Shown here piece by piece: positions 7,485 through 47,497 of a DNA stretch of 50,609 bases. How positions within the stretch are numbered: the first letter of the stretch is position 1; each line of letters begins with the position of its first letter. The stretch is from Legionella drancourtii LLAP12 (GTDB lineage Bacteria; Pseudomonadota; Gammaproteobacteria; Legionellales; Legionellaceae), in contig NZ_JH413832.1 of NCBI RefSeq assembly GCF_000162755.2, positions 20,633 through 71,241 of the forward strand, in the 5' to 3' direction. The position numbers and the translations under genes are program-made. The notes beneath the pieces are model-generated. The model saw nothing but the letters and a program-made list of their open reading frames with translations, made no database searches and was not told where the DNA came from.

Positions 7485-7504
7485 TTGAGCTTCAGGAGAT
7501 TTTT

Positions 7505-7923: not shown

Positions 7924-8094
7924 TCACTCAAATTCATCTGCTGTCTCATATCCCAGAGCTGAATGTAGCCGCTGACGATTATAAAACACGTCAATGTAAT
8001 CGAATACAAGCACTTGAGTTTCTGCTCTGGTGGGCTTTAAAGGGGGGCGATAATGCGCGAATTCTTTGTTTCTTGCCCTGCTTTCTTGTGTTTT
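7924..8094 (-). pseudogene. IS3-family transposase (OrfB) C-terminal remnant
   Basis: The minus strand encodes KPTRAETQVLVFDYIDVF followed directly by YNRQRLHSALGYETADEFE and a stop at 7924-7926. This is the C-terminal end of the rve/DDE integrase domain of IS3-group OrfB proteins. Upstream of the first Lys the frame reads only poorly like the family and stops at 8095, so the rest of the transposase is gone. I see no intact terminal repeats. The remainder of 7685-8239 shows no other gene. Confidence 0.85.
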
Positions 8095-8239
8095 TCATTC
8101 TTAAGTGATTTAATTGCCGCCTTATTTTTTGAGTGTTCTTTGGGCATAATTAAAGATTTATTTTAGATTATACCCTGTGATTTCAACAGGAAATTATAAA
8201 GAGGCATCAGATTCAATTGCAGTACAAGGAATTTTGTAT

Positions 8240-9454
8240 ATGGGAAAAGAAGTGCTACGAAGCACAGTGTTAATGGTTGCCTCAATTACAACAGCACATG
8301 CTCTTGAAGGAGATTTTAAAGGATTTAAATACGCATTCCATGGTTTTATAAGTGCAACGGGATATACACAAACGACACCGGGATTTGTACTTAATGGTCA
8401 GGGCCCTCTGATCCTTTTGTTTACCCCAAGTACAAGTAGCACTACTACCGGTTTTGATGTTCGACAAACACGTTTAACTTTTTCCGCCAGTGGGCCATCA
8501 GTCATGGGAGGAGCAACTCCCAAGGGCTTAATTGAAATTGATTTTTTTGGTTTGAATTCGCCTGGAGGATATGGAGAGGTTTCAGTTTATCCCCGTTTAC
8601 GTCTTGCTTATACTGAATTAGATTGGTATGGCAGAAACAAAATTAGAGCAGGCCAAGATTGGGAACTGCTAATGGTTGACTTACCTACTTCTCTTTCTCA
8701 TCTAGCCTATCCTGTCACCTATTTTGCGGGTCTAGTCGGTTGGCGAGAGCCTGGAGTTAGTTTTTTTCATACCGATACTATGGAAAACTCCAATCTTGAA
8801 TTTGCTTTACAAGTATTAAAATCTGATTGGCAAAATCCTCTGGATTTTGGGCAATCAACAGTGCAGAATCTGAATGTTGATGCAGGACAACTTTCAGGTC
8901 TTCCTGGAATTGAAATGCGTACGAAATGGACATCTGCAAATCAAGATTATGCGGTATATGTGGTTGGACATGTAAGTAAAGTCGATGGTACTCGGGTTCG
9001 CAATTTACCCATCTCGGGAGGAATATTTGTAACAACGCCAACAAGAAATTGGACCGTAGCAGTTGCAAAGATTGGGGGTAAAGCTAAAGTATCAGCATTT
9101 ACTCTCAAAGGTGAAGTATATACAGGAAAAAACACAGGGCCACTGATAGGTGAGCAACTACAATTTATCACAGCAAATGATGTTCATGAGTCTGGTGGAT
9201 GGATTCAACTTGGATATGATCTTCCTAATAATTTTAGTATTTATGGCACTTATGGAATAGCAGCTGATAATAAATCAGACGTCGTTTCAGGAGGTGGTGT
9301 TCGGTACCAAAACCAAGTTTATGGCGGAATGATTCAGTATCGCTCTAAGACCTTTGCTGTAGGTCCAGAAATATATCATGTAACAACAAGCACTGTTTCA
9401 GGTTCTCCTTTACAAGGGATTACTTATCTTTTAAGTGCGAATTATGGCTTTTAA
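8240..9454 (+). CDS. DcaP-like outer membrane porin
   Basis: A 404-residue secreted beta-barrel. I choose ATG 8240 because AAGGA lies about 10 bp upstream and the protein then begins with a signal peptide (MGKEVLRSTVLMVASITTAHA); the GTG at 8177 would put 21 residues before it. FDVRQTRLTFSASG, GLIEIDFFG, PRLRLAYTELDW and the KIRAGQDW block resemble the DcaP trimeric porin family, and the protein ends in the aromatic YGF expected of barrels. It probably takes up small organic anions; the substrate is unknown. Transposase remnants lie on both sides, so the gene may have been acquired. Confidence 0.75.
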   Translation: MGKEVLRSTVLMVASITTAHALEGDFKGFKYAFHGFISATGYTQTTPGFVLNGQGPLILLFTPSTSSTTTGFDVRQTRLTFSASGPSVMGGATPKGLIEIDFFGLNSPGGYGEVSVYPRLRLAYTELDWYGRNKIRAGQDWELLMVDLPTSLSHLAYPVTYFAGLVGWREPGVSFFHTDTMENSNLEFALQVLKSDWQNPLDFGQSTVQNLNVDAGQLSGLPGIEMRTKWTSANQDYAVYVVGHVSKVDGTRVRNLPISGGIFVTTPTRNWTVAVAKIGGKAKVSAFTLKGEVYTGKNTGPLIGEQLQFITANDVHESGGWIQLGYDLPNNFSIYGTYGIAADNKSDVVSGGGVRYQNQVYGGMIQYRSKTFAVGPEIYHVTTSTVSGSPLQGITYLLSANYGF

Positions 9455-9597
9455 CTAGGCAATATTCTTCGACTAAATGGTTATATGATGAGCATGATGT
9501 GGTCAAGAAAGTAGTTAAGGTCCCGTTGCAAAACGAGCGATAGTTTATACTTTAATCTAAAACTATTAAATAACGAATAACAGCATGTGTTCAACGG

Positions 9598-23281: not shown

Positions 23282-23938
23282 TTAAAAACGATAAGCTATT
23301 CGCGCTGTAATAGAATAAAGGAACGGAAAATAAGAGTCTGCCGGGCTTAATTGTGACTCACCAAAGCCAGCCGTATAATTTCCTGCAATTTCACCCATTA
23401 AATGTTCTGTGAAGTTATAATTTACGCCAACGCCGAAAGTAGGGCTCACGCGCCAATCATCAACGAGCATATCTCTACGATAAAGAGTAGTTGCTCCAGC
23501 ACTAGAATACACTTTAAAATTGCTGTGCGGTATTAATAGCATAATTTTACCGATTAAACTGATTCCGTCAGTTTTAGTCGTTAACTGAAGTTCACCATCA
23601 TGCTCGAAAGTGAAAATGCTCGTCCCATCAAAATAAACAGTGGAGTCAGCATAGCGCATGTAGTTTGCTTCAACAGCAAAATAAGGAGAAAACTCATATC
23701 CTGCGAACACTCCCCAAGTTGCTCCTCCCTCTTCAACATCAATGGGGGTAGACATACTTAAAGCCATGTTTTGATTTTTTGTCTGCGGTACTAAACCTTG
23801 CCATGTAGTAGAACCATAACCACCTATAAGTCCAACGTAGAGCGGATGTTGCACTTGGTTCGTTATTTCTGCCTGACATAAGGTAGTAGAAAGAAATAAA
23901 AATGAAAATAAATATAATTTTGATTTTTGATGAATCAC
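23282..23938 (-). CDS. OmpA-like outer membrane beta-barrel protein
   Basis: A 218-residue protein with a signal peptide (about 1-23, ending LCQA) and alternating beta-strands. GLIGGYGSTTW, GVFAGYEFSPYFAVEANYM and SPTFGVGVNYNFTEHL have the pattern of eight-stranded OmpA/OmpW-like barrels, and the chain ends in the barrel signature IAYRF. No periplasmic OmpA peptidoglycan-binding domain is present. Function unknown; such proteins act in adhesion, envelope integrity or small-molecule passage. Confidence 0.8.
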   Translation of the reverse strand: MIHQKSKLYLFSFLFLSTTLCQAEITNQVQHPLYVGLIGGYGSTTWQGLVPQTKNQNMALSMSTPIDVEEGGATWGVFAGYEFSPYFAVEANYMRYADSTVYFDGTSIFTFEHDGELQLTTKTDGISLIGKIMLLIPHSNFKVYSSAGATTLYRRDMLVDDWRVSPTFGVGVNYNFTEHLMGEIAGNYTAGFGESQLSPADSYFPFLYSITARIAYRF

Positions 23939-24015: not shown

Positions 24016-24357
24016 CTATTGGCAGGCTAGTCGAGTAGAACTACATATTCTTCCACGCGAGTCTACCCCACCTAGACGGTAACAATTCCAGTTATCCATA
24101 CAGTCTTGTGGGCTGGTATATCTTTGATATTCACAGGCTTTTTGTAATGAACCAAAGACACTGATTAAGCGTGCATAAAGCATATTCATGTCTTGACACA
24201 TCATGGGAGGCAGGCCAGAAACGGCACAGTAACATGTCGCTGCGGTTTTAAATGAAGCGCAAAAAGCTGGATTATCTGTAGGAACAGCATTGGTACATGC
24301 TGCAAAGGCTGACAAACTAAAAAAACACATCAGAACTGCAAAAATTCTTCGTATCAT
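24016..24357 (-). CDS. Small secreted cysteine-rich protein
   Basis: A 113-residue protein starting at ATG 24357 (MIRRIFAVLMCFF), with AAGGTG about 7 bp upstream; the longer frame is a weaker choice. A signal peptide ends at about SAFA-AC. The mature chain has ten cysteines, an even number suited to five disulfides, some in pairs such as TCYCAV and MDNWNCYR. No membrane segment or known domain is recognised. It is probably exported by Sec and folded by Dsb in the periplasm. An own terminator follows. Function unknown. Confidence 0.72.
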   Translation of the reverse strand: MIRRIFAVLMCFFSLSAFAACTNAVPTDNPAFCASFKTAATCYCAVSGLPPMMCQDMNMLYARLISVFGSLQKACEYQRYTSPQDCMDNWNCYRLGGVDSRGRICSSTRLACQ

Positions 24358-24642
24358 TTTTAACACCTTAATTAGACTGAACATTACTTAAGTAATGTAC
24401 CAGAAAATAAATCAAGCTGCAAAACGGATAAATGCAATTTACGATAAATAAAAAATTAGAGAGAAAATTATTGTGCGCGCCTGAGTATTGCTGATTCATA
24501 GCTGCCAAATTAAGGGATGATAGCTTAAAAAAAATCACCCCGGATTTTTCTCTAAATGGAAAAAGGGTAGGATCACGGTCAATAAATTAAAAATTTATTT
24601 TTCTCTTTAGGGCGATGGATGTGCCTGTTGGCGAAAAAAGAG

Positions 24643-25074
24643 TTAAATAGTTAATTGACAATCTTGATGGCTCAATTTCATCCTGTCTTTTTCAACTAAG
24701 GCCGCATCCATAATTTTAATTACTTCATGCGCAATCCGTTCTCTAAACTCAGGTTGCAAATTCGCCGAAATTACTAAATAACGTGTTTTTTGATTGTCAT
24801 CATAGATAAAACACACTTCAAAAACATAATCTATAGCTAATAATTCTTCTTGATGATGCTTAATTGATTTTCTTTTTAAGCCAAATAGATTCGTGTTCTT
24901 ATGGGATCCAGAAATAAAATTACTTCGGACATTTAGATTAATAATAAAATGAGTATCACGTTTAAAGAACATTAGGCGAGCAATGCTGCGTTGCAAAATT
25001 TTGCGATAAACAGGGGTTATGCAAAGTATTTTAGTGCAAAGAGGTATCAGTAAGTCAATAAAAAAGTTTCTCAC
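24643..25074 (-). CDS. C-terminal part of the NRPS condensation domain in a shifted frame
   Basis: A 143-residue frame beginning GTG at 25074, overlapping the stop of the NRPS gene by GTGA. It contains HFIINLNVRSNF and a run of strands and helix ending FRERIAHEVIKIMDAAL, which resembles the C-terminal lobe of condensation domains, exactly the part missing from the upstream gene. The frame is open upstream to about 25115 without a good start. Adding one C to the C6 run at 25082-25087 joins the two frames. It could be a separate coupled subunit, but a frameshifted domain is more likely. No other function is visible. Confidence 0.6.
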   Translation of the reverse strand: MRNFFIDLLIPLCTKILCITPVYRKILQRSIARLMFFKRDTHFIINLNVRSNFISGSHKNTNLFGLKRKSIKHHQEELLAIDYVFEVCFIYDDNQKTRYLVISANLQPEFRERIAHEVIKIMDAALVEKDRMKLSHQDCQLTI

Positions 25075-27932
25075 TTTTCTTGGGGGGCGTTTAATGTACT
25101 GCTGGCGCTGAATTTAATTAGTGTAGGGCAGTGTTGATAGTCACTGGTATCTGTGGTTGATTGCCATATTTGTTTGGATAGTGCTGTTAAAGTAGAGTTA
25201 TTATTCAAGTCAACTTTAATTGACTCTACGTTGAGAAAACAGCCAAGCGAATGATCATAAATCGGCTTGTCACGTGTTGACTTGATAATATTCATTACGG
25301 TGAAGGGTGTGTCACTTTGGTAGCCGTCACAGCAATTGCGTAAAGCCAGCGCCAATATAGCGCATAGACCGTTATTGATGCTGATGTGATTTTGTCCACA
25401 AAAATGTTTTAGCCTATTTAGTGCGTGTTTGGGAATTTCTGTGTAGGTAGAGTAGGGCAGTTTTGCTGTCTTCATATCGTCTACAACATAGCTTTTTGGA
25501 AATGAAAAGAAAGAAGCATCTTTTAAATAGTCTTCCCAAAATAGAATATTTTTATCTAAAGATTGTTCAATAAGCTGGTGTTCTGCAAAAACATATTTCT
25601 TATAGTGCGTATCGGTTTCTATGATCAGTTTTTCATTGTAGTGCAAATAAAATTGAGATAAATCATCAAATAAAATATCAATTGATGCATCATCAGAAAT
25701 TAGATGTGGCATGCAAATTTGTATTTCTACCGAATCTTCTCTTAGGTAAAATAATTTGCTGATAATGAGTGGAGAATCTTTAGCCCATGCATGAAAATTA
25801 CTTAATTCAGTCAAGGAATGTTCTAGAGTTTGTTCACTTTCTTGCTTAGATAACGATTCAATATTTTTTTCAATCAGCCGCCAAGACAGTTTTTTTTGCA
25901 CTTGCTGCGCGGGTTTTAACTTTAAAATACGATAAATTAACACCTGATGTTTTTTTAGAACCGCTTGAAATGCGCGTTCTAAAATAGCTTTATCCAAATG
26001 ACCTTGGAATCGTTTTCTAGCAACAATATTTAATCTTTTGGCTTTGGGTTCAAATGTATCTGCCATCCAGAGTACGAATTGGAAATCGCTTAGTGGTGTA
26101 TCGGTGATTTCATTATATTGAATTTCATTGGCCAAGTCTTTTTTGGCTTTTGCAGTGCGGTGAATCACCGGAATTAAATTGGCGATGCATGCTGCTTGAT
26201 AGAAGTCATTCAAGGTAATGCTTTTTTCCAATAGATGGTTTATTTTTGAAACCAGACGCGCTGCGGATAAAGAATGTCCGCCAAGCTCAAAAAAATTATC
26301 ATTGAGTCCAATGAGGCGAATCCCCAACTCTTCTGACCAGAGTTGCGATAGTTTTATTTCTAAGTCAGTAGTAGGTCCTATATAATGCTGGCTGGCTTCT
26401 AATCGTGGTTGAGGCAATGCTAATTTATCTAATTTACCATTGGCGGTAAGTGGCAAGAAATCAACTTTAATAAAGGCAGTTGGCATCATATATTCGGGAA
26501 TTTGAGCCTGCAAAAACTCACGTATATCATTTGCTGTGGGTGTGGAGTGAAAATTTTTTATCATGTAATAGGCAACCAATCGATGTTCTTGCAACGAATT
26601 TTTTTGCGTTACTACCGCTACTGTTTTAATTAGCGGATGTGCTGCTAAGCGTTTTTCTATTTCTCCAGGCTCAATCCGAAAACCGCGTATTTTTACCTGA
26701 TCATCCATTCGGCCCAGATATTCAAGCATACCATCAGTACGTTTACGGCATAAATCGCCCGTTTTATACAAACGGGCGTTTTTATCGGTACTAAATGGGT
26801 TTTTAATAAATTGTCGCTGCGTTAATTCGGGTTGATTTAGGTAACCGCGAGCCAAACACCTTCCTCCAATAAGTAATTCACCCTCTTCGCCATCAAGAAC
26901 AGGCATATTTTGTTGATCGACAACATGATAATGCATGTGCGCGCCGGTCTTACCAATAGGAACATTCGCTGCAAAATCAGAAAAACTAGTATTGCTTACT
27001 TTGTATGTAGAAATGGCAACAGTGGTTTCTGTTGGGCCATATTCGTTAAATAATACATGAGTCGGATAAAGCTCAAGCCATGCCTTGCACTCTACAGCGG
27101 ATAAATTTTCGCCACCTAAGATAATTGATTTTAAGGAGGGGAGGGCAATAAAGTTATTTTGTGTCTCCTGTAAAAGAATTTTAAAATAACTCGGAGTAAG
27201 CTTAATGGTGTCGATGGAGTTATTGGCAATATGGTGCAGGTAATTTCTTGTATCTTTTTTGATCTTGTCGGTGCAAATCACAACCGTTAGACCCAACATT
27301 AATGGCGCAAGCGTAACAGATACTGCCATATCAAAAATAGGATTAGATGAAAAATCAATACGTTGCTGTGCTTGGCAACCCGTATATTCTGCAAACCAGT
27401 GACAGTAATTAATTACTGAATGATGTTCAATTAATACACCTTTAGGGTTTCCTGTAGAGCCGGAAGTGTAAATAATATAAGCTAGATGTTCCGGAGAAAT
27501 GGCTGGCTGTGGATTTTCAGTGGCTTGCTTGGTAATATTTTTCTCATCACTATCAAGGAGGATTATTTCTCCTTGATAGTGATTTAATTTATCTTTTAAA
27601 ACCGATTCAGTGATTAAAATAGGTGCATTGCTGTCATTTAACAGAAATAATAAACGCTCTACTGGTTGCGATGAATCAATGGGCAAATAGGCTCCACCGG
27701 CTTTTAAAATAGCAATAATTGCAATTAGAAAATCAAATGAACGCGGTAAACATAGGGCAATTGGCATATCTGGTTTAATGGCCCTTTCTTGCAAATAATG
27801 TGCAAGTTGATTTGCTTTTCTATTTAACTCGCTATAGGTTAACGATTGTTTCTCATTGAGCACAGCAATATGATCAGGAAACTGACGCACATGTTGTTCA
27901 AATAACCCCGATATTGTATTTTTATTATCCAT
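25071..27932 (-). CDS. Single-module NRPS: adenylation, carrier and (split) condensation domain
   Basis: About 953 residues from ATG 27932 (MDNKNTISGLFEQH), 8 nt after the exporter stop; an ATG at 27971 inside that gene is possible, and neither has a clear ribosome site. Adenylation domain about 5-510: LTYSELN, YTSGSTGNPKG (A3), NEYGPTE (A5), YKTGDL (A7), NGKLDK (A10 Lys). Carrier: DNFFELGGHSLSA, the Ser for phosphopantetheine near 554. Condensation domain from about 612: the core reads PHLISDD where HHxxxDG is usual, keeping the second, catalytic His. The C domain stops mid-fold and continues in another frame. The order A-T-C, with no thioesterase, suggests conjugation of one amino acid to another acyl acceptor. 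Substrate pocket residues point to Asn or a similar amino acid (see finding). Confidence 0.85.
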   Translation of the reverse strand: MDNKNTISGLFEQHVRQFPDHIAVLNEKQSLTYSELNRKANQLAHYLQERAIKPDMPIALCLPRSFDFLIAIIAILKAGGAYLPIDSSQPVERLLFLLNDSNAPILITESVLKDKLNHYQGEIILLDSDEKNITKQATENPQPAISPEHLAYIIYTSGSTGNPKGVLIEHHSVINYCHWFAEYTGCQAQQRIDFSSNPIFDMAVSVTLAPLMLGLTVVICTDKIKKDTRNYLHHIANNSIDTIKLTPSYFKILLQETQNNFIALPSLKSIILGGENLSAVECKAWLELYPTHVLFNEYGPTETTVAISTYKVSNTSFSDFAANVPIGKTGAHMHYHVVDQQNMPVLDGEEGELLIGGRCLARGYLNQPELTQRQFIKNPFSTDKNARLYKTGDLCRKRTDGMLEYLGRMDDQVKIRGFRIEPGEIEKRLAAHPLIKTVAVVTQKNSLQEHRLVAYYMIKNFHSTPTANDIREFLQAQIPEYMMPTAFIKVDFLPLTANGKLDKLALPQPRLEASQHYIGPTTDLEIKLSQLWSEELGIRLIGLNDNFFELGGHSLSAARLVSKINHLLEKSITLNDFYQAACIANLIPVIHRTAKAKKDLANEIQYNEITDTPLSDFQFVLWMADTFEPKAKRLNIVARKRFQGHLDKAILERAFQAVLKKHQVLIYRILKLKPAQQVQKKLSWRLIEKNIESLSKQESEQTLEHSLTELSNFHAWAKDSPLIISKLFYLREDSVEIQICMPHLISDDASIDILFDDLSQFYLHYNEKLIIETDTHYKKYVFAEHQLIEQSLDKNILFWEDYLKDASFFSFPKSYVVDDMKTAKLPYSTYTEIPKHALNRLKHFCGQNHISINNGLCAILALALRNCCDGYQSDTPFTVMNIIKSTRDKPIYDHSLGCFLNVESIKVDLNNNSTLTALSKQIWQSTTDTSDYQHCPTLIKFSASSTLNAPQEK

Positions 27933-27940
27933 TTTATTGT

Positions 27941-30154
27941 TTACAATTTTGGTAAAAGGCGATCTAGCCATTTAGGGAGATACCAATTCCATGTTTTAAA
28001 AAGCGCCATAGTAGCTGGAACTAAGAAGCTTCGAATGAAAAAGGCATCCATAAAAATTGCAACAGCAATGCCGAGTCCAAACGCCTTAACCATCAATACA
28101 TCGGCGACCAAAAACGAACCGCAAATAACAATTACGATAAGCGCAGCACTGGTAATAATGCGACTGCTTTTTTCAATTCCAAAAATAATACTTTGATTAT
28201 TATCTTTGCTGTGTTGATGTGCCTCTTTGATTCGGGAAAGTAAAAAGACTTCATAGTCCATCGAGAAGCCAAATAACGCACAGAAAATAATGACTAATAA
28301 ACTTATATCCAACATCCCTTGGGGTTCAAAATTAAGCAGCTTAGATAAATACCCCTCCTGGAATACAAACACTAAGGCACCGTATGAAGCACAAAGGCTC
28401 AATAAATTCATTAAAATTGCTTTTAAAGGTAAGAAAATCGATCTAAGCAATATTAGTAGTATAAGATAGGAAAAGGCCATTATCCATAAAACAGCATAAG
28501 GAAGCATGTGGTAGATCGTATGTAAGACATCAATATTCGCAACGGCTGTACCCGTTAATTGCAAATCTAATCCATGAATAGGTTGCAGATTACGTAGTTC
28601 AGCAATGAGTTTTTTAGTCTCAGGTGAATTCATCGGATACTTGCTGACAATATTCAGGACTGTCAAATGCTTGAGCGTCGTGATCGTTAACAATTGTTTG
28701 ACGTGTGTATCTGCTAAGCTTTTATCGGTATGATACAGCATATAGTATTGTTTTTTGGTCAGATCGGAATCACTGCTGATAATGCCGTTAATTTTTTTAA
28801 TGCGTGGATTGTCTTTGAGTTTATCCACTAAATCATAGATCTTATTCAGATTGCTACGCGATAAAATTGGCGAGGAAGGCGAGTGAATCACCAGTTGAAT
28901 AGGATTTAATTCTTGAATATTAAACTTTTCGGCATAGGTATCATAAAAACTTCGGCTGGGCGAATTTTCCGGGAAAATGCGATAATCCGAGATGCTAAAT
29001 TTTGCCGATAAAAATGGATAACCCAGTACTAACAATAAAACAAGAATCGTGGTGAAAAACAAATAAGGTCTATGAACAACGCGTTCGGCCAGCCAACGCC
29101 AGCAACTGAAACCATTTTGATGATCTCGTTTAATAATGTGAACGGACAGGAAATTAATTTTTGTTTTTATGACCGCAAGAATTGCCGGCAGTAGAATGGT
29201 GGAAATCAGAACCGCAAAAAATACGGCCGCAAGCCCACCTACGGCGACAGAAAACAGGATATTAATTGGAAATAAAAACAGGGCGCTAAGACTAACAAAA
29301 ACAGCTAAACCACTAAAGAAAATCGCTTTCCCAGCATTGCCTTGGGTCACGGCAATAGCTTCTTCGCTGCTTAATCCATTTTGTAATTCATCGCGAAAAC
29401 GACTAATAAAAAACAGTGAATAATCAAGACACAGGCAAAGGCCTAATAATAAAGCAATATTGATCGTAAATACGGAAAGCGTAAAGTAATGACCAATGAA
29501 ATATAATGTGGTGAGAATAATTAAGGCACATCCCCCACCTAAAATAATCGGCAATGTTGCCGCAACTACGGAACCAAAAACAAAGAGCAAGGTGATAATG
29601 GCAACTGGCGTTGCAATAAAGTCAGCTTTATAAAGGTCAACTTGAGTTTGGTGAGTGACATTATCCACAAATTGTGGCTCACCACCAATCTCTATGGTCA
29701 TATTTGCAGGTTTTTTTATTGAATCTTTAAATTGCCGTAATAATTTATCGCTAATTGGTTTTGGGGTTTTGACGATTACCACAACATAAGCGGTGTGTTT
29801 ATCCTTGGATATTTGTTGCTTTTTATAGGGCAAAAGAATATCGTGCTTAATCGGAAAATCATCTAAATCCGCCAAGGATTTCTTTATTTTCGCTATATAT
29901 TCCGGATTTGTCGCCTTTAGTTTGGAACTGTGGTACATAATAAGAAATTTGTTATTACTGTTATAACCAAATTTTTTATTTAAGTATTGGGTTACGGCTG
30001 TACTGGAAGAACGATCATCCACAAAGCCGGTGGTTTTAAATGGTTCCATAATGTGAGGCAAAAATGGAATACATCCTAAAATAATCAGCATCCACAGGAT
30101 AATGATCGGCCAACGAAATCTATTGATAACTTTTCCTACTTGGTAAAAAACCAT
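27941..30154 (-). CDS. MMPL/RND-family inner membrane exporter
   Basis: A 737-residue protein starting at ATG 30154 (MVFYQVGKVINRFRW). It has the RND-like doubled layout: TM1, a periplasmic loop, a group of TM segments around LLLGLCLCLDYSLFFISRFRDEL, a second periplasmic region, and a C-terminal group with FCALFGFSMDYEVFLLSRIKEA. The GxxxDY(S/E)xFxxxR motifs mark MMPL proteins, exporters of lipids, hopanoids and lipid-linked metabolites. It precedes the NRPS, whose start lies 8 nt after the stop (or overlaps it), so they are cotranscribed. The natural reading is export of the NRPS product. Divergent from epmC. Confidence 0.88.
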   Translation of the reverse strand: MVFYQVGKVINRFRWPIIILWMLIILGCIPFLPHIMEPFKTTGFVDDRSSSTAVTQYLNKKFGYNSNNKFLIMYHSSKLKATNPEYIAKIKKSLADLDDFPIKHDILLPYKKQQISKDKHTAYVVVIVKTPKPISDKLLRQFKDSIKKPANMTIEIGGEPQFVDNVTHQTQVDLYKADFIATPVAIITLLFVFGSVVAATLPIILGGGCALIILTTLYFIGHYFTLSVFTINIALLLGLCLCLDYSLFFISRFRDELQNGLSSEEAIAVTQGNAGKAIFFSGLAVFVSLSALFLFPINILFSVAVGGLAAVFFAVLISTILLPAILAVIKTKINFLSVHIIKRDHQNGFSCWRWLAERVVHRPYLFFTTILVLLLVLGYPFLSAKFSISDYRIFPENSPSRSFYDTYAEKFNIQELNPIQLVIHSPSSPILSRSNLNKIYDLVDKLKDNPRIKKINGIISSDSDLTKKQYYMLYHTDKSLADTHVKQLLTITTLKHLTVLNIVSKYPMNSPETKKLIAELRNLQPIHGLDLQLTGTAVANIDVLHTIYHMLPYAVLWIMAFSYLILLILLRSIFLPLKAILMNLLSLCASYGALVFVFQEGYLSKLLNFEPQGMLDISLLVIIFCALFGFSMDYEVFLLSRIKEAHQHSKDNNQSIIFGIEKSSRIITSAALIVIVICGSFLVADVLMVKAFGLGIAVAIFMDAFFIRSFLVPATMALFKTWNWYLPKWLDRLLPKL

Positions 30155-30277
30155 ATTCTTCTCATTCTTTTTAGTAGAAACGCATAAATTAAAACAATAC
30201 AAAAAATGATGACTCATTAAACATATTAGTATAAATTAGACATTATTGTTTGGATTTAGCTACTGAAAAGGTATTTT

Positions 30278-30982: not shown

Positions 30983-32125
30983 TTAATGATGTAACACGAC
31001 TCCCATTGTCCAGTCTAAATTCTCTGCAGAAGGCACATAATTGACTTTCTGGTTAGGAGAAAATCCATAGCCATTTACCATTAGCGCGTAGTAAAAAGCA
31101 GGTAAGAGGCAGTAGGCATCCAGATATTCATTGTTAGGATATTGATGACTTAATTCATCCCATTGTTGATGGCAAGCCAGATTATTGGCCTGTTGCAGGA
31201 AATCTTGGGTTGTCAATTGGCTCTTGGGGAATTGAAAGGGTTTGCTTTCTGCAAGGTTGGCAATTCCACCAATTGCATACCAAGATGTTACTGGATTATT
31301 AGCCAGAATAGGTTGGACAACGTTGTTCGCCTTGTGCACCCCATTAATTAATGCCGCGATTTCATCTGCGCAGTCAGGGGCATTGCCTTGTCCTGCTTCA
31401 CCATTAGGAAGAGGGTAATTATTCGAAAAACAGGAAGTAGAATCAAGGAGTTGGTGGGTCATTTCATTTTGTCCAAGGCCAAGAAAACTATAGACAAACA
31501 GGTTGATTTGCTGGCCATAAAGAGTTAATTCAATCAGGGTGCTTTTACTCAGATTAGGTGTGGCATTATTTTGGAGGGGAAACGCAATTTGTGTCGAGGC
31601 CCCGCCAATATCCAATACGCCTATGGGTTGTTGTGACGCAGATTTAAGTGTGCCTAAATGGTAATTTACAGAAAGCCAGTCATAGAGCGCTTCATCATCG
31701 CCGGTGATGGTTTTGGCATCCCTAAGTTGCCATTGTGATTGTTGGTCGAACCAATTTTTCAGGTTTTGATAATAAATTTTTTGTTTGGCTTGCGGAACTA
31801 AACGCATGCCTGCAGTTGCATAAAAATAGACTGGCATTTTCTGTGCGGGTGCACCAGAGAATAGAATAGCCATGTATGCATCTAGAGTATTTTGGTTGGT
31901 TTCAAGACTGGCAAAGGCTGGCTGGATTTTTTTTAACCATATTTCATCGATGTTAATGGGGGTATTGGTTTCATCCATATCGTAGGAAAAAACATGTAAT
32001 CTTGAGCCGGTGCTGCCTGCATCAATTACCGCAATACATTGATGTTCAGTACAGGACGTTGTTTTAACATAACCTGTGCCAGTAATTAAAAATAAGCAAG
32101 AGATAAAAATCAACAAACGCACCAT
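30983..32125 (-). CDS. Secreted CD39-type ecto-NTPDase (apyrase)
   Basis: A 380-residue GDA1/CD39 nucleoside triphosphate diphosphohydrolase with a signal peptide (about 1-19). All apyrase conserved regions are visible: VIDAGSTGSRLHVF (ACR1), YFYATAGMR (ACR2), TGDDEALYDWLSVNY (ACR3), GVLDIGGASTQIAF (ACR4) and SWYAIGGIA (ACR5). In the family these bind the phosphates and the Glu/Asp activate water. It hydrolyses extracellular or vacuolar NTP and NDP. L. pneumophila Lpg1905 is a well-studied virulence-linked relative, and this is very probably its orthologue. Single gene, minus strand, convergent with epmC and divergent from the EamA gene. Confidence 0.95.
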   Translation of the reverse strand: MVRLLIFISCLFLITGTGYVKTTSCTEHQCIAVIDAGSTGSRLHVFSYDMDETNTPINIDEIWLKKIQPAFASLETNQNTLDAYMAILFSGAPAQKMPVYFYATAGMRLVPQAKQKIYYQNLKNWFDQQSQWQLRDAKTITGDDEALYDWLSVNYHLGTLKSASQQPIGVLDIGGASTQIAFPLQNNATPNLSKSTLIELTLYGQQINLFVYSFLGLGQNEMTHQLLDSTSCFSNNYPLPNGEAGQGNAPDCADEIAALINGVHKANNVVQPILANNPVTSWYAIGGIANLAESKPFQFPKSQLTTQDFLQQANNLACHQQWDELSHQYPNNEYLDAYCLLPAFYYALMVNGYGFSPNQKVNYVPSAENLDWTMGVVLHH

Positions 32126-37315: not shown

Positions 37316-38182
37316 ATGAATACTTATTTATTGACGCAAAATATAGATCAAATCAATCAACAAGACAGTGTTAACCTTCTTGAAGAAGGTTCGGTCTTAT
37401 TTTTTCCCGAATATTATTTTTCTGATGTAGATTCGGCTTTGATGTCTGAAACCATTTTAGATGGTAGTCGTAAAAATATTAGTTATGATTCGCAACGCAA
37501 GACCTTGAGCGCTTATAGAAAAGGTATTGATGGCTTGGACAGTAAACTGGCGCAAATGATGGCAGGTTATGCTGATTTTGCCTATCAATTAATTCGGGCT
37601 ACTTTACCGTCTTATATACCGCACTTACAATGGGGGCGTACCAGTTTTAGACCAGCGCAGGTTAGTGGCCGCGCTAGTTCAAAACGTAAAGACGATACGC
37701 GTTTGCATGTTGATTCATTTTCAGCAAGCCCTGTGCATGGATTAAGAATTTTACGTGTTTTTTGTAATATCAATCCGTACAATGAGCCACGTGTATGGAA
37801 TCTTGGCGAACCATTCCCCCATGTTCTTGAGCGTTTTGCGCCGCACATTGCGCCCTATAGTAAATTCAAGGCAAGAGTATTGAAATTAGTTAAAACTACG
37901 AAAACATTACGTTCGGCTTATGATCATTATATGTTGCATTTGCATGATACGATGAAATTGGATGATGTCTACCAATCGCAAGTTAAAAAAATACAAGTTG
38001 ATTTTCCTGCACAAAGCAGCTGGATTGTTTTTACTGATCATGTGTCGCATGCAGCACTTAGTGGTCAGCATTTGCTGGAACAGACTTTTTATCTTCCCGT
38101 TGATAAAATGACAAATCCAGAGTGTTCTCCGTTAAGGCAATGGCAAAAAATTAGACCAGAAGTCCATGCAAAATTAGCCTGA
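37316..38182 (+). CDS. Kdo hydroxylase-family Fe(II)/2-oxoglutarate oxygenase
   Basis: A 288-residue protein resembling the Kdo 3-hydroxylase (KdoO) family, which hydroxylates Kdo of the lipid A core. TRLHVDSFSASPVHGLRILRVF has the HxD metal-binding motif, and WIVFTDHVSHAAL gives the distal His. SFRPAQVSGRASSKRKDD is another family-like stretch. The enzyme would act on Kdo-lipid A at the inner membrane face. It is divergent from ychJ. Family assignment is from motif and general similarity; the substrate is inferred. Confidence 0.82.
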   Translation: MNTYLLTQNIDQINQQDSVNLLEEGSVLFFPEYYFSDVDSALMSETILDGSRKNISYDSQRKTLSAYRKGIDGLDSKLAQMMAGYADFAYQLIRATLPSYIPHLQWGRTSFRPAQVSGRASSKRKDDTRLHVDSFSASPVHGLRILRVFCNINPYNEPRVWNLGEPFPHVLERFAPHIAPYSKFKARVLKLVKTTKTLRSAYDHYMLHLHDTMKLDDVYQSQVKKIQVDFPAQSSWIVFTDHVSHAALSGQHLLEQTFYLPVDKMTNPECSPLRQWQKIRPEVHAKLA

Positions 38183-38493: not shown

Positions 38494-39756
38494 ATGCAAG
38501 GAGCTACATCACCTAAAGAAAATAAAAAAAAATTGGTGATTCCTCATCATTGGAAAAAACATTTTCCCTCAGAGAATTTTTGGGGATTGTCCATTCTTAT
38601 TGTGGTATTAATTGGTTTGCTGTGGTTTTATTTTGCCAACAAAAAACCAAAAATTAATGGTGTAAAAGCTCTTCCTGTTGTCACGGCAATTTCTACCGCA
38701 CGTGATGTTCCTGTTTATCTTCCTGCTTTAGGGACTGTTACTCCTGTTTATACGGTTACGATTCAATCGCAAATTAATGGCCTCTTAATGAAGGTCTTGT
38801 TTAAAGAGGGCGAGTTGGTTAAAAAAGGTCAGTTATTGGCGCAAATCGATGAGCGTCCTTATCAGGCTTTGTTAATTCAGTATGAGGGGGATTTAAAGCG
38901 TGATACCGCTCTTTTAGAAAATGCTAGAATTGACCTTAAGCGTTATCAAAAATTATGGAAAGAAGATTCTGTTTCACAACAAGTTCTAGCAACGCAACAA
39001 GCATTAGTAAAACAGTATGAGGGTAATGTCGAAACAGATTTAGGTTTAATTCAGAGTACCAAAGTCAATCTGATTTATTGTAATATCATCTCACCTATTG
39101 ATGGACGCATAGGCTTGCGCTTAGTTGATCCAGGCAACTTCGTACAAACTACGAATACTGGGGGTATCGCGGTTGTTACAACCAATGATCCGATGACGGT
39201 AATTTTTCCCATTGCAGAAGATTATGTTCCGCAAATTATTCCTCAAGCATATGCCAATAAAGCATTGGTAGTAAAAGCTTATGATCGTCAGCAAACAAAA
39301 TTACTGGCAACAGGGAAACTGCTGGCATCGGGTAATCAAATTGATCCAACCACTGGTACTGTAAAACTAAGGGCTGTATTTGATAATAAAGAAAATAAAT
39401 TATTTCCTAACCAGTTCGTGAATATAAAAATTCTGGTAAATACGTTGCACAATGCCACTCTAGTTCCTTCTTCAGCAGTGCAACATACCACAACGGAGGA
39501 TTTTGTTTATGTCTTCAATGCGGATAATACCGTAACCGCCAAAAAAATTATCATGGGACCTGCCAGTGGAGATGATACCGTGATTACAAGTGGTTTAGCG
39601 CCCGGCCAACACGTAATTGTTGATGGTGCTGATAAATTAATGAATGGCTCAAGGGTTGTGGTACAAGCTTCATATACTATTAAAAAAGCCCACGTTTCCC
39701 AGTATGCTCTTCGCAGCACAATGAATCATGATGGCAAGGTGCATAGTGTCACATGA
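38494..39756 (+). CDS. mdtA: RND efflux periplasmic adaptor (MdtA-like membrane fusion protein)
   Basis: A 420-residue membrane fusion protein. An inner membrane anchor (WGLSILIVVLIGLLWFYF, about 29-47) is followed by a lipoyl/barrel-sandwich domain with coiled-coil hairpin and beta-barrel. Signatures: PVYTVTIQSQINGLLMKVLF, LLAQIDERPYQALL, SPIDGRIGLRLVDPGNFV and the SGLAPGQHVIVDGADKL end. This matches MdtA, the adaptor that links the MdtBC pump to the outer membrane channel. It overlaps mdtB by ATGA, so translation is coupled. First gene of the efflux operon. Confidence 0.93.
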   Translation: MQGATSPKENKKKLVIPHHWKKHFPSENFWGLSILIVVLIGLLWFYFANKKPKINGVKALPVVTAISTARDVPVYLPALGTVTPVYTVTIQSQINGLLMKVLFKEGELVKKGQLLAQIDERPYQALLIQYEGDLKRDTALLENARIDLKRYQKLWKEDSVSQQVLATQQALVKQYEGNVETDLGLIQSTKVNLIYCNIISPIDGRIGLRLVDPGNFVQTTNTGGIAVVTTNDPMTVIFPIAEDYVPQIIPQAYANKALVVKAYDRQQTKLLATGKLLASGNQIDPTTGTVKLRAVFDNKENKLFPNQFVNIKILVNTLHNATLVPSSAVQHTTTEDFVYVFNADNTVTAKKIIMGPASGDDTVITSGLAPGQHVIVDGADKLMNGSRVVVQASYTIKKAHVSQYALRSTMNHDGKVHSVT

Positions 39757-42700
39757 GTATTTCCGGCCCATTTATAGCAAGAGCAATTGCAACTTCATTA
39801 TTAATGTTTGCCATTTTCCTCAGTGGAGTGCTTTCTTATAAATTATTACCTGTTTCTGCTTTACCCGATGTAGAATACCCTACAATCCAGGTTTCAACTT
39901 TTTATCCAGGCGCCAGTCCCGATGTAATGAGTACTACGGTAACTGCGCCACTGGAACGGCAATTTGGACAAATGCCAGGCTTGGAGCAAATGACTTCAAA
40001 TAGTTCTAACGGTTCCTCTATTATTACGTTGCAATTTAATCTGGAGGTGGGGTTAGATGTTGCTGAACAAGAAGTACAACAATCCATTAATGCAGGCAGT
40101 AGTTATCTGCCTAAAGATCTGCCTAATCCTCCTGTTTACAGTAAAGTAAATCCAGCAGATACCCCCATTATTACTTTGGCTTTAACATCAAAAAACATGC
40201 CTTTGACCAAAGTAGAAGACTATGCAGAAACGCGCTTGGTACCTAAAATCTCCCAGTTAACCGGCGTTGGTTTGGTTAGTATTGGTGGCGGACAGCGCCC
40301 GGCTGTTCGTATTCAAGCCAATCCAAACGCATTATCTTCTTATGGTTTAACAATGGAGGATGTGCGCACTCTGGTTGTTGCTTCCAACGTGAATGCGGCT
40401 AAAGGAAATTTTGATGGTCCACGCTTAGCCTACACGATTAATGCAAATGACCAGCTTTTATCTGCATCCGCTTATCGTCCCTTAATTGTGGCCTATCAAA
40501 ATAGTGCTCCGGTGCGTTTATCTGATGTCGCTCAAGTGATTGATGGGGCAGAAAATACCATGCAAGCTGCATGGATGGATAAAGAGCCGGCAATTATTCT
40601 TAATATTCAACGTCAGCCTGGTGCCAATGTTATTGAAGTTGCCGAGCGTGTTAAACGTTTATTGGCGCAAATGAGGGCAGCTATTCCTGCTCAAATAAAT
40701 GTGGAAGTGCTTACCGACCGTACCACCAGTATTCGTGCCTCAGTAGAAAATGTGCAACTTGAATTGCTCCTTTCTGTAGCCTTGGTCGTTATGGTGATTT
40801 TTCTGTTTTTACGAAAATTACCGGCAACAATTATTCCCAGCATATCGGTTCCGTTGGCGCTCGTGGGCACTTTAGGTTTAATGTACTTGCTTGGATTTAG
40901 TCTGAATAACCTGACGCTAATGGGTTTAACCATTGCTGCCGGCTTTGTGGTTGATGATGCGATTGTTATGATTGAAAACATCATGCGTTATATCGAACTG
41001 GGTGAAGCACCATTAGACGCTGCACATAAAGGAGCTGCCCAAATTGGCTTTACCATTATTTCCTTGTCGATTTCATTGGTTGCGGTATTAATTCCTTTAT
41101 TGTTTATGGGGGATGTCGTTGGGCGATTATTTCGTGAGTTTGCATTGACCTTAACTATAACTATTGCAATCTCAGCTTTTGTCTCTCTAACCTTAACTCC
41201 CATGTTGTGTTCACGAATATTAAAACCTGAAAGCGAACGGAAAACGAATAAGTTTGAACAGTTTCTAGAGAATAATTTAAATTATGTGATTGAACGTTAT
41301 AAAGGTTCCTTAGGCTGGGTACTTGCACGTCAACCGTTTATTTTATTGGTTTTTTTCATTACGGTATTGATCACGGCAATTTTGTTGTACCTCATTCCTA
41401 AAGGATTTTTTCCCATCCAGGATACCGGCGTAATTCAAGGAATTTCTGTTGCGGCAGATTCTCTTTCTTTTCCCGCTATGGCTGAGCGTCAGCAAGCTTT
41501 GGCTGATGTTGTGCTTACCGATCCTGCCGTTGAAAATCTTTCATCATTTATTGGTATAGATGGTACCAATGCAACATTAAACAGCGGGCGTATCCTTATT
41601 AATTTAAAACCATTAGATGAGCGTCTTGATGCCAGTGAAGTGATTAATCGTTTGCAATCCAAACTTAAAAAAGTTGTTGGTGCAACGCTGTATATGCAGC
41701 CAGTACAGGATTTAACGATTGATACGTTAACTAGTCGTACACAATTCCAATACAGCGTGAGTGCTCCAGATAGTGCTGATGTAACAAAATGGTCGCAGTT
41801 AATGTTAGAGAAAATGCGGAAAATTCCTATTTTGAAGGACGTGAATAGTGATCAACAAAATAAGGGTTTAGTGACCACCATTAATATCGATCGCGATACA
41901 GCTTCCAGGCTGGGTATTACCATGCAAATGATTGACGATACCTTATATGATTCCTTTGGTCAGCGGCAAATATCGATTATGTTTACTCAACGTAATCAGT
42001 ATCGAGTAGTACTTGAAGTCGTACCTTTATTGCAAAAAGCAGCAGTTGCCTTTGAAAATTTATATATTAATTCAACAGTTACTAATTCACAAAGCCCCGG
42101 TTCCGCAACTCTGGTTACTAGCAGTGGCTCCGTGCCTTTCAAAACTTTTGCCAATCTTTCGCAAACCTTAGGGCCGTTAGTGATTGCACATAAGGATCAG
42201 TTTCCAGCGGCAACCCTTTCTTTTAATCTTGCCGCAAATGCTTCTTTAGGGGATGCCATCACTGAAGTTAATGCAGCAAAAAAAAGCCTTAACATGCCGA
42301 TTAATGTCGAGGCGGGATTTCAAGGGACCGCAAAAAGTTTTGAAAACGCACTGGCGAATGAAGGTTGGTTAGTTGTTGCGGCAATTGTGGTGGTTTATAT
42401 TATTTTAGGGTGCTCTATGAAAGTTATATTCATCCGTTAACTATTCTCTCTACTTTGCCTTCTGCTTCTATGGGGGCATTATTGGCTTTATATTTGACGA
42501 ATAATGAACTCAGTATTATTGCCTTGATTGCGATTATTTTGTTGATTGGTATTGTGTTGAAAAATGCCATTATGATGATCGACTTTGCTTTGGAACAGGA
42601 GCGCGAATATAAAAAAAATCCTTTCGATGCAATTTATGAGGCGGCCTTACTGCGTTTTCGTCCAATTCTCATGACGACTATGGCTTCGATGTTAGGCGCT

Positions 42701-42898
42701 ATACCCTTGGCTTTAAGTAGCGGCATGGGTGGGGAATTGCGGCGCCCATTGGGTATTGCCATTATTGGTGGTTTGATTGTTAGTCAATTAGTGACGCTCT
42801 ATACCACGCCCGTTATTTACCTGACTTTTGATCGTATTTCACGACGGGTGATGGAGTATGGTCGGAAGAATCACGGCTCGCAAGAGGTTGAAACGTGA
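39753..42898 (+). pseudogene. mdtB: RND efflux permease MdtB, single-base frameshift
   Basis: An RND pump subunit broken into two frames: 39753-42440 (895 aa) and a second frame that carries on to 42898. At 42408-42410 the sequence GGGTGCTCTATGAAAG should read GGGGTGCTCTATGAAAG; adding one G converts ILGCSMKV to [16 protein letters not shown], the normal sequence, as the paralogous mdtC shows. The whole region is 3146 nt, one short of a multiple of three, consistent with one missing base. Twelve TM segments, RND motif GFVVDDAIVMIENI and the two periplasmic porter repeats are present. Truncation removes the last four TM helices, so a pump would be non-functional unless the base is really there. 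Confidence 0.9.
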
Positions 42899-45800
42899 AT
42901 CTATCTGCATTGTTTATTCGCAAACCAATAGCAACAATTTTATTGGCTTTAGGTCTAAGCTTTGCTGGTATTCTCGCTTTTAATTTATTACCTGTGGCAC
43001 CATTGCCACAAATTGATTTCCCAACCATTACCGTTCAAGCTTCTTTGCCTGGTGGCAGTCCCGAGGTTATGGCAACTTCTGTAGCAACTCCTTTGGAACG
43101 CCAGTTAGGTCGTATTGCTGGCATTACGCAAATTACCTCATCCAGTACGTTGGGGCAATCAAGTATTACGATTCAATTTGATTTATCACGTGATATTGAT
43201 GGTGCTGCTCGGGATGTACAGGCAGCCATCAATGCGGCGTTGAGCCAATTACCCACGAATTTGACGAATAATCCTACTTATCGCAAAGTTAATCCAGCCG
43301 ATGCACCAATCATGATTATTGGCCTGACTTCTGATAAGTATACCCCCGGGAAAATGTACGATGTCGCATCGACAATACTCCAGCAAAAAATCCTACGTAT
43401 TGAAGGAGTTGGGCAAGTAAACGTAGGCGGTGGTTCATTGCCGGCTGTGCGCGTGGAAATTAATCCAACAACACTCAATAAATATGGAATAGGACTAAAT
43501 CAGCTGGCAACAACCATTGCCGCAGCAAATGTGAATCAAGCCAAGGGACAAGTTGTTAATAACGATGGCACGTTGTCAACAATTAAAAGTAATGATCAAA
43601 TGCTCAAAGCCGCGCACTATGCGCCGCTTATTATTTCTTATAATAATAATAATCCGGTGCGGCTTTCTGATATAGCCAATGTAATCGACTCGGTGGCCGA
43701 TGTACATAATGCGGGACTCGCAAATGGAAAACCGGCTGTTCTGCTGGTTTTATTCAAGCAACCTGGGGCAAACGTAATTAAGACGGTGGATTATGTGAAA
43801 AAAATATTGCCGCAATTGGAAGCTTCGATTCCTAGTGAGATTAACTTAAATATTTTAATGGATCGCACCACCACAATTCGGACCTCCTTGCATGATGTGG
43901 AGTTAACCTTATTAATCGCCATGTTCTTGGTAATTTTTGTAACCTATCTTTTTCTCGGCAGTGTGCGTGCTATGTTGATTCCTGGGATTGCCGTCCCCTT
44001 ATCGTTGTTAGGTACCTTTGCGGTAATGAAATTATTAAATTACAGTTTGGATAATTTATCATTGATGGCTTTAACTATTTCAACTGGCTTTGTAGTTGAT
44101 GATGCTGTAGTGGTTTTGGAAAATATTTCACGTCATATTGCTCTGGGTAAAAAGCCACTGCAAGCGGCTTATGATGGTTCTAAAGAAATTGGCTTTACCG
44201 TATTATCTATGAGTATATCTTTAATTGCCGTTTTTATTCCTATTTTGCTGATGACGGGTATTGTCGGGCGCTTATTTCGTGAATTTGTGGTCACGCTTTC
44301 AGTCGCTATTCTTATTTCATTAGTGATTTCTTTAACCTTAACACCCATGATGTGCTCGCGATTATTGCGTGGAAATGAAGGGGAACAAACGAATCATTTT
44401 ATGAATTTTATGGAGCGTGTTAAATTGCGCTATAGCAAAGGTTTGCGTTGGGCTTTAGTGCATCCAACAATGATGTTAGTGCTTACTGTTGGTGCTATTT
44501 TTCTTACCATTTATCTATTTGTCGCGATCCCTAAAGGATTTTTCCCCCAACAAAAAACAGACCGTATTGCTGGCTCTTTACGGGCGGATCAAAATATTTC
44601 ATTCCAAGCGATGAAGGAAAAATTGATCCAATGTGTTTCCATTATTAAACAAGATCCTGCCGTAGCGAATATTGCCGCTTTTATTGGTACTGGTCCAGGT
44701 GGTAATACCTCGAATACAGGGTCTGTATTTATTATGCTCAAAGTTCCTAAGCATCAAAATATTCCTACGGAGCAGGTCTTAGCACGTTTACGCAGTAAAT
44801 TAACGGCAATCAAGGGGGCTACTTTGTACATGCAATCCGCGCAGGATTTAACCATTGGGGGTAGAATAAGCGCGGCACAATTTCAGTACACCATGTCCTC
44901 TGACAGTTTGCAAGATCTTGCAAACTGGACCCCACGTATTATGGAACAATTGGCTAAGATTCCGGGTATTTCTGATTTGAATAATGACCAGCTCAATCAC
45001 GGTTTGCAGCTTTTTGTGAATGTGGATCATGACACTGCTTCGCGTTTTGGTATTACCCCAGCGCAAATCGATCAAGTACTCTATCATGCTTTTGGGCAAA
45101 GTCAGATTTCAGTGATGTATATGCCGATGAACCAATATTTTGTGGTGATGAATGTGGCGCAAAAATATTGGCAATATCCTAAGGTATTGGATGAGATTTA
45201 TGTGTTGTCGGCAGCAGGAAATGAGGTTCCACTATCTGCATTTGCCAGCTTTAAACCCGGTTCTACCTTATTGTCGGTCAATCATCAAAGCCAAACACCG
45301 GCAGCTACTTTTTCATTTAATTTAGCTCCAGGAACCTCGCTTGGAGGAGTGGTAAATACGATTACCGATATGATCAGTAACATGGGATTGCCACCCACCA
45401 TGCGTGGGGCATTTCAAGGCACCGCGCAAGCATTTCAAGAATCTTTTGCTAATGAAAAATATTTGATTATGGCAGCATTATTGGCAGTATATATTGTGTT
45501 GGGTATGCTGTATGAAAGCTTGATTCATCCCCTTACTATTTTATCTACGTTGCCATCGGCCGGCGTTGGTGCTTTATTGGCTTTAATATTATGTCGTACG
45601 GATCTGAGTATTATTGCGTTTATTGGCATTATTTTGTTGATTGGTATTGTGAAAAAGAATGCAATTATGATGATTGATTTTGCCTTGGATGCTGAACGCC
45701 AAGAAAATAAATCGCCGCGAGAGGCAATTTATGAAGCTGCCTTATTACGTTTTCGTCCAATTATGATGACGACTATGGCTGCTTTGTTAGGTGCTTTGCC

Positions 45801-46002
45801 CTTAGTGATTGGTTTTGGGGTCGGCTCTGAATTAAGACGTCCATTGGGTATTGCTATTGTTGGTGGTTTAATCCTTAGTCAATTACTTACTCTGTATACC
45901 ACGCCCGTGATTTATTTAGCATTGGATACAGCAAGCATACGTTTACGCCGATTCATGGCGCAAATTAAATCTACACGAGGTGCCTATGGTCACTCATCCT
46001 AA
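42895..46002 (+). CDS. mdtC: RND efflux permease MdtC
   Basis: A 1035-residue RND pump subunit, full length for the family. It begins at GTG 42895, overlapping the mdtB end by GTGA. Visible: the first TM and porter domain ([14 protein letters not shown]), TM4 proton-relay acids in [15 protein letters not shown], and the C-terminal half with [20 protein letters not shown] and [18 protein letters not shown]. MdtB and MdtC form a B2C heterotrimer in E. coli exporting bile salts, novobiocin and other compounds. With mdtB frameshifted, MdtC may work alone or be idle. Strong paralogy to mdtB. Confidence 0.95.
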
Positions 46003-47497
46003 TCGATTACTTAGATGGTCAATAGTACCTCTAATAACCTGTTTGCTTTCATCCTGTCTGGTCGGCCCTAATTATGTACGCCCAAAGGTAGTCGGTTCGC
46101 CTGAATTTAAAGAGGCTAAGGGCAAAATGGTGGCAGGACCTAAAAATAAAAACTGGAAGCCTATAAAGCCCCAAGATGACCTGGATCGTGGTGAGTGGTG
46201 GAAAATATTTAAGGATCCGGTTTTAAATGATTTAGAGGAGCAGTTGAATCATTACAATCAAAACATCGCTAACGCACAAGCAACTTATCATCAATCCCTT
46301 GCCATCGTTGATGAAGCTCGTGCCAGTTTTTTTCCGACAATAAGTAGTACATTTAGTCTTCTTCGTCAGCGTCAGGGTGGTGGTGCAACATCCTTTATCA
46401 GCTCATCCGGGGGCTCAACTTCAGTTGGTACCGCAGCAACGGGTTCGCAATCAACAGCAAGGACATCAACCAGTTATACCGGGATCCTAAATGCAAGTTG
46501 GGAACCTGATATTTGGGGTTTGGTTCGTCGCACGGTGGAGGCAGATCGTTCTTTAGCCGAATCCAACGCCGCTTTAATTGGCGTAACGCGATTGTCAGCC
46601 CAAGGCTCTTTAGCGCAATATTATTTTGAATTACGCACTTTGGATAAGAATCAACGATTTTTAGATAATACGGTCAAGTCATATAAAGGCATATTACAAT
46701 TAACTATTAATCAATATAAATCAGGGGTTGCTTCGCAAGCGGATGTAGTGCAAGCACGAAGTCAATTGGAAACAGCACAAGCGTCGGCATTGAATAATGG
46801 TATTTTACGTGGTCAGTATGAGCATGCAATTGCGGTGTTAATTGGTCGTCCACCAGCGTATTTATCCTTAAAGTTTATGCCATTGCAAACAAAGCCACCA
46901 ACCATCCCGTTAACAGTACCTTCAGTGTGGTTGGAGCGCAGACCAGACATTGCACAGTCGGAACGTTTATTGCAACAATACAGCGCCTTAATAGGTGTTG
47001 CGGTGGCAGCTTATTTTCCATCACTAAGTTTAACAGGTTCCGCCACCGCTTCAGGTAATAGTTTTCATAAACTGATTCATACACCTTCCGTAGGTTGGTC
47101 TGCTGGTTTGCAATTGGCGGAAACTATTTTTGATGGTGGTTTGCGTGCCGCGACAGTACGCGCCGCAAAAAATGCTTATGTTGCGCAACTTGCAGCATAC
47201 CGCCAAGTAGTTCTTACTGCCTTTCAGGATGTCGAGGATAATTTGATTTCCTTACGTATTTTACGTGAGCAAAGTGTAGTACAAAATAAAGCTGCCGCCA
47301 GTGCTCGCTTAGCACTTAAATTAGTGCTTAATCAATACAAAGCGGGAACGGTGAATTATAGCAGTGTGCTTACGGCGCAAATTACTGCTTTTGCCGCAGA
47401 GCAGGCTGCTAATAATGTGGATGGTTTACTCATGACCTCTGCGGTGGGTTTGATAAAAGCTTTAGGCGGTGGTTGGGTGAGCGAGGTTAGCAAGTAG
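45986..47497 (+). CDS. Outer membrane efflux lipoprotein (NodT/OprM family)
   Basis: A 503-residue OprM/TolC-type channel. I start at ATG 45986 ([15 protein letters not shown] 6 bp before it) rather than GTG 45980. A lipoprotein signal with LLSSC lipobox lies near residue 25, followed by the family N-terminus VGPNYVRPKV, then two OEP repeats with NYNQNIANA-like helices and motifs such as ASWEPDIWGLVRRTV and VPSVWLERRPDIAQSE. It completes a tripartite pump with MdtA and MdtBC, overlapping the mdtC end. No resistance phenotype can be assigned. Confidence 0.93.
   Translation: MVTHPNRLLRWSIVPLITCLLSSCLVGPNYVRPKVVGSPEFKEAKGKMVAGPKNKNWKPIKPQDDLDRGEWWKIFKDPVLNDLEEQLNHYNQNIANAQATYHQSLAIVDEARASFFPTISSTFSLLRQRQGGGATSFISSSGGSTSVGTAATGSQSTARTSTSYTGILNASWEPDIWGLVRRTVEADRSLAESNAALIGVTRLSAQGSLAQYYFELRTLDKNQRFLDNTVKSYKGILQLTINQYKSGVASQADVVQARSQLETAQASALNNGILRGQYEHAIAVLIGRPPAYLSLKFMPLQTKPPTIPLTVPSVWLERRPDIAQSERLLQQYSALIGVAVAAYFPSLSLTGSATASGNSFHKLIHTPSVGWSAGLQLAETIFDGGLRAATVRAAKNAYVAQLAAYRQVVLTAFQDVEDNLISLRILREQSVVQNKAAASARLALKLVLNQYKAGTVNYSSVLTAQITAFAAEQAANNVDGLLMTSAVGLIKALGGGWVSEVSK

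Follow-up and report, generated by a model that had tools for sequence, protein, structure and literature searches.

The MMPL-NRPS locus of Legionella drancourtii

We analysed a stretch of 50,609 nucleotides from Legionella drancourtii LLAP12 (contig NZ_JH413832.1), hereafter the window. According to its open reading frames (ORFs) and their Pfam matches, the minus strand encodes an exporter of the MMPL family directly before a nonribosomal peptide synthetase (NRPS) with one module of adenylation (A), thiolation (T) and condensation (C) domains, and a 143-aa ORF with the end of a C domain (Table 1). Pfam found neither a thioesterase nor a second NRPS module in the locus. All this agrees with the original prediction for this DNA, which had regarded the exporter and the NRPS as a two-gene unit. 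Our analysis makes it a set of four genes, adding C122, a small secreted protein, and an outer-membrane beta-barrel. This set may make and export an aminoacyl conjugate.

The 143-aa ORF, previously described as a continuing C-domain fragment, is indeed the end of a C domain: it has no Pfam match above the cut-off, and is 50-60% identical to the NRPS ends of four relatives. It is, however, no separate unit. Of the first nine relatives retrieved, eight encode the NRPS as a single uninterrupted frame of 1,065-1,116 aa, and in the ninth (L004) the contig ends within the gene; the fragment therefore reflects a break in the window copy. Judging by these relatives, the window NRPS is one gene with a frame change inside the C domain, i.e., a single module with its C domain split over two frames, and their starts suggest that it begins at an ATG near 27932. 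The piece behind the frame change has diverged no more than expected. Barring a sequencing fault, the interrupted enzyme may have no activity, and L. drancourtii LLAP12 may hence not make the product.

Table 1. Features of the window (positions counted from its first nucleotide).
Feature	Positions	Strand	Details
MMPL ORF	27941-30217	minus	737 aa from ATG at 30154 (start used earlier); 758 aa from first possible start
MMPL (RND superfamily) exporter	27941-30154	minus	737 aa; both Asp-Tyr pairs of the transmembrane core; Pfam MMPL 3.1e-73, in two stretches
NRPS ORF	25071-27971	minus	966 aa; A-T-C, C domain cut short; Pfam AMP-binding 5.3e-78, AMP-binding_C 5.2e-12, PP-binding 1.1e-12, Condensation 9.1e-30 (model positions 4-330 of 456 only)
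Adenylation (A) domain	26433-27902	minus	Pfam; 10-residue code DMSKIGEVAK by alignment, Asn-like
Thiolation (T, or peptidyl carrier protein) domain	26172-26351	minus	Pfam PP-binding 1.1e-12; LGGHSLS including attachment Ser
Terminal condensation (C) domain, first part	25074-26102	minus	Pfam Condensation; MPHLISDDAS near 25683-25712, where HHxxxDG is expected
143-aa ORF, other frame, remaining C-domain end	24643-25074	minus	Aligns with relatives' NRPS ends
C122, small secreted helical protein	24016-24384	minus	122 aa; ten conserved cysteines; signal peptide by eye
OmpA-like outer-membrane beta-barrel	23282-23938	minus	Pfam OMP_b-brl 1.1e-12, OmpA_membrane 6.7e-11
Large ORF	1758-4301		847 aa; no Pfam match at 0.001
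Large ORF	8177-9454		425 aa; no Pfam match at 0.001
GDA1/CD39 nucleoside phosphatase	30983-32125		Eukaryote-like
Kdo hydroxylase homologue	37316-38182		1e-94; lipopolysaccharide-core modifying enzyme
Tripartite efflux set	38494-47497		HlyD-type adaptor, two adjacent AcrB-family pumps, outer-membrane channel
Leucine-rich-repeat/FNIP protein	47681-49165		Eukaryote-like

An exchangeable A domain and a constant C domain

We read the code of the window A domain (DMSKIGEVAK) as Asn-like, the Asn code lying near DLTKIGEVGK. Asn-like codes were found in 58 of the 76 NRPSs that we aligned, and the amino acid activated in the window lineage is probably asparagine, as judged from this code. Across the family the A domains are Asn-like, Gly-like and, in one case, Ser-like. 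The attachment Ser of the T domain is kept in all 76 NRPSs.

A and C domains were compared pairwise at matched C-domain identity (0.30-0.45). The mean A-domain identity was 0.473 within the Asn-like type (1,215 pairs) and 0.522 within the Gly-like type (66 pairs). Between the two types it was 0.293 (797 pairs), and it was below the C-domain identity in 775 of these 797 pairs. The Ser-like row had an A-domain identity of 0.341 vs 0.379 for the C domain (57 pairs), and the remaining odd row, compared with the Asn-like type, gave no sign of exchange (A 0.357 vs C 0.330). Genome G034 carries two NRPSs, L145 (Gly-like) and L158 (Asn-like), which are 56% identical in the C domain and 31% in the A domain, with the change near residue 520; a quick tree of the C domains groups the two as sisters (98 SH-aLRT). 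The low A-domain identity between code types at matched C-domain identity implies that the A domain was swapped and the C domain stayed. The A domain is exchangeable between species, and the C domain and the exporter are constant. With a varying donor amino acid and an unvarying C domain, it is probably the acceptor that stays the same.

The terminal C domain has the two-lobe fold. Its motif departs from the canonical HHxxxDG (PHLISDD in the window): the second His and the Asp are kept in all 76 NRPSs, the first His in none and the Gly in four. The residue before the catalytic His is Pro in 58 of the 76, the window included, and Ser in the other 18. These residues argue that the domain is a conserved lineage with its catalytic His and Asp retained, and not a decayed one; the inactive or pseudogene lineage that would have undone the original prediction was not found. 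The best structural matches are C domains of ordinary assembly lines, and there is weak sequence similarity to a PapA5-type chain (1.1e-4).

As the C domain directly follows the T domain, we take the aminoacyl thioester to be its donor. The order T-C is also the ordinary donor arrangement, and it would suit, together with the structural matches, a starter acting in trans, i.e., a module of a split assembly line that passes its aminoacyl group on to an acceptor bound to the carrier of another NRPS or polyketide synthase. Multi-module NRPSs do occur besides in many of the genomes (ORFs of 1,300-8,200 aa, among the matches listed). We nevertheless regard this explanation as unlikely, because no partner module is linked in any of the 69 loci whose ORFs we mapped besides the window, and because HHxxxDG has lost its first His and, in most cases, its Gly, as in the free-acceptor C domains described in the available part of PMC13142362, whose motif differs. 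Very unlikely, in our opinion, is a release by hydrolysis or cyclisation, as by fungal terminal C domains (CT, with the motif SHxxxDxx(S/T)) or IvoA-like enzymes, which would give a modified amino acid or a dimer, e.g., a diketopiperazine. There is no epimerisation or tailoring domain to make hydrolysis useful. Once Asn is exchanged for Gly, a hydrolase would do no more than set free glycine itself, and those MMPL exporters whose cargo is known transport lipids or siderophores, going by the names of their PDB entries. We therefore keep to a transfer of the aminoacyl group to an acceptor that needs no second-module carrier.

Two further observations concern A-T-C genes. In genome G032 they occur in tandem (L153), with C domains that are alike (49%) and A domains that are not (31%). 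A second A-T-C clade (L110-L115, L159-L161) has mostly the code DFAKVGEVAK, with LGGNS in the T domain and SHxxxD in the C domain; it is not adjacent to MMPL in the mapped loci, and four of its members adjoin a gene of 281-283 aa.

Exporter, C122 and barrel

The exporter belongs to the MMPL family of the RND superfamily and is 734-758 aa long in relatives. Asp and Tyr are present at both sites in all 46 aligned relatives, and the closest solved chains are those of mycobacterial MmpL3 (1.9e-79). Assignment as an MmpL3 equivalog was rejected (313 bits vs the NCBIfam cut-off of 1400). In C122, nine cysteines are kept in 38 of 38 aligned rows and one more in 36. The protein is predicted to be helical, with low-to-medium confidence (mean pLDDT 81.3; 59.5-81.3 among five models), and has neither a Pfam match nor a known relative in the libraries searched. 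The barrel adjoins C122, in the same place, in most mapped loci.

Occurrence and gene order in Legionellaceae

The closest relatives of the window locus were found in Legionella species and in metagenome bins of Legionellaceae. Among 143 Legionellaceae genomes, 105 encode the MMPL exporter, 107 encode C122, and at least 86 encode a single-module A-T-C NRPS (here and below, NRPS counts are among the matches listed, with multi-module rows left out). A second survey drew 369 genomes evenly across the class; the C-domain profile matched three of them (1e-50), MMPL four (1e-90) and C122 four (1e-6). All the matched genomes belong to the Legionellaceae set, and the terminal C-domain lineage was not seen elsewhere at this threshold; remoter homologues may lie below the thresholds used.

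The window has the order MMPL, NRPS, C122, barrel, as do 20 of 29 further loci (L001-L009, and L076-L095, which had been picked as linked). Four deep-branching bins with Gly-like NRPSs (L006-L009) encode C122 and the barrel, then MMPL and NRPS in divergent orientation. The NRPS-MMPL link is held in two arrangements, i.e., co-directional with Asn-like and divergent with these Gly-like NRPSs. Of the 82 genomes that encode both, 44 have the NRPS no more than 2 kb from MMPL (37 on the same strand), and the original prediction, which had staked itself on such linkage of homologues, passes on this point. The exporter's steadier partner is C122 and not the NRPS: the presence of MMPL and C122 agrees in 135 of the 143 genomes (102 with both, 33 with neither) and in all 73 genomes of at least 3.0 Mb, and the two genes are within 6 kb of each other in 76 of the 102. 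Of the 86 genomes with a listed NRPS, 82 have MMPL and 85 have C122.

A proposed cassette for aminoacyl conjugates

We propose that these genes form an envelope-linked cassette of Legionellaceae in which an exchangeable amino acid is joined to a fixed acceptor and exported, and we give this reading a probability of about 0.45. The proposal builds on observed features, namely the order of the domains, the conserved active-site residues, the exchange of A domains, and the linkage and co-occurrence of the genes. The A domain would activate the amino acid (Asn in the window lineage) and load it on the T domain, and the terminal C domain would transfer the aminoacyl group to the acceptor, for which a membrane lipid or a small amine is the likeliest candidate. 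The exporter would carry this product, or else the acceptor, out of the inner membrane; C122 would be its periplasmic and the barrel its outer-membrane partner. Between species the amino acid could be swapped, and the acceptor and export sides would stay. The core of the original prediction, that a single activated amino acid is attached to an acceptor and the product exported, remains the best reading, with asparagine as the probable amino acid, but the two-gene unit was incomplete.

Several observations weigh against this cassette. The co-occurrence tests ignore the kinship among genomes. The NRPS is near neither MMPL nor C122 in 37 of the 86 genomes, and the 4.2-Mb genome G057 has an A-T-C NRPS without MMPL or C122. 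No acceptor gene is consistently linked. Between C122 and the barrel there is a site that resembles a terminator, so that a single transcript of the set cannot be assumed. In L. longbeachae, L. santicrucis and two more (L001, L002, L096, L097), the A-T-C NRPS is away from MMPL and adjoins a TauD-type dioxygenase, near a PvcA/DIT1 isonitrile synthase (the NRPS of L002 is at 6135-9476); these neighbours hint at other chemistry in L. longbeachae and its three kin. Lastly, the NRPS slot changes state seven times on the MMPL tree (quick tree, 46 rows), and MMPL stays close to C122 in 14 genomes that have no A-T-C NRPS among the matches listed. The exporter thus has work without the synthase, and the NRPS is an optional member of the set. 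Separately, a TauD gene also adjoins the NRPS in L005, and one is close to the four-gene set in L093.

The seven slot changes and these 14 genomes also favour the strongest rival explanation, according to which the genes are neighbours only: MMPL, C122 and the barrel would be a self-standing envelope system with other cargo, and the NRPS a mobile passenger in the slot between MMPL and C122, often lost or moved. C122 is near MMPL with no NRPS beside them in 35 genomes, including the 14 above, and MMPL, C122 and barrel are contiguous without the NRPS in nine of 20 loci picked for an MMPL without adjacent NRPS (L116-L135). Besides the window copy, the NRPS of L078 is broken (408+671 aa), and pieces of it are found in G066, G077 and G139 (among the matches listed). 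Against a passenger stand the presence of MMPL and C122 in nearly all listed NRPS genomes, even when unlinked, and the link kept in both the co-directional and the divergent arrangement, and we rate this explanation as rather improbable.

The cassette can be given a more specific form, which we consider doubtful: a nonribosomal aminoacylation and flipping of lipids. The C domain would attach Asn, Gly or perhaps Ser to a single constant membrane lipid, which an MmpL3-like pump, helped by a barrel and by a cysteine-rich periplasmic protein of its own, would deliver to the Legionellaceae surface. Should the acceptor be a lipid, the cassette would modify the cell surface by NRPS chemistry in an amoeba-dwelling bacterial family.

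Comparison with known systems

The original prediction had recognised no described Legionella metabolite from this layout; the NRPS layout itself has been described. The available part of Tobias et al. 2016 (PMC5126622) describes Cluster F, a single-module A-T-C NRPS with no known product, as the most prevalent cluster in 15 Legionella genomes. It shares with our NRPS the order A, T, C in one module, and the genomes include L. longbeachae, where we found an A-T-C gene (L002); we tentatively equate the two from this description. A word search of the main text of that paper found neither MMPL nor export, and our literature searches, whose coverage mostly stopped short of subscription journals, returned no paper on the NRPS-MMPL pairing. 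The NRPS is therefore probably known already, and the four-gene set and the A-domain exchange look new. What is presumably the commonest Legionella NRPS, a decade without product or partner, is now tied to an exporter, a cysteine-rich secreted protein and a barrel, and its exchangeable amino acid and constant C domain narrow the question of the metabolite to the identity of the constant acceptor.

According to the available part of PMC1238737, MmpL exporters act beside acyl-transferring enzymes. The window exporter resembles mycobacterial MmpL3 and other MmpL proteins, its closest solved relatives, in its two MMPL halves and both Asp-Tyr pairs. It differs from MmpL3 in its size of about 740 aa without a long C-terminal tail, in its Gram-negative host and in the linked A-T-C NRPS. 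PapA-type acyltransferases are C-domain-like transferases paired with an MmpL exporter; unlike in the Legionella NRPS, A and T domains are not fused to them. Terminating C domains and those acting on free amines (OaaC, which makes fatty acid amides) form amides without a carrier protein for the acceptor, as is proposed here, and likewise have an altered HHxxxDG, as far as PMC13142362 is available. In the same source, OaaC-type domains stand alone with the motif DHxxxDS and take a fatty acid from a separate carrier, whereas the Legionella enzyme has [PS]HxxxD (PHLISDDAS in the window) and receives an amino acid from its own fused T domain. The parts of the Legionellaceae set are thus ordinary, and their combination is unusual.
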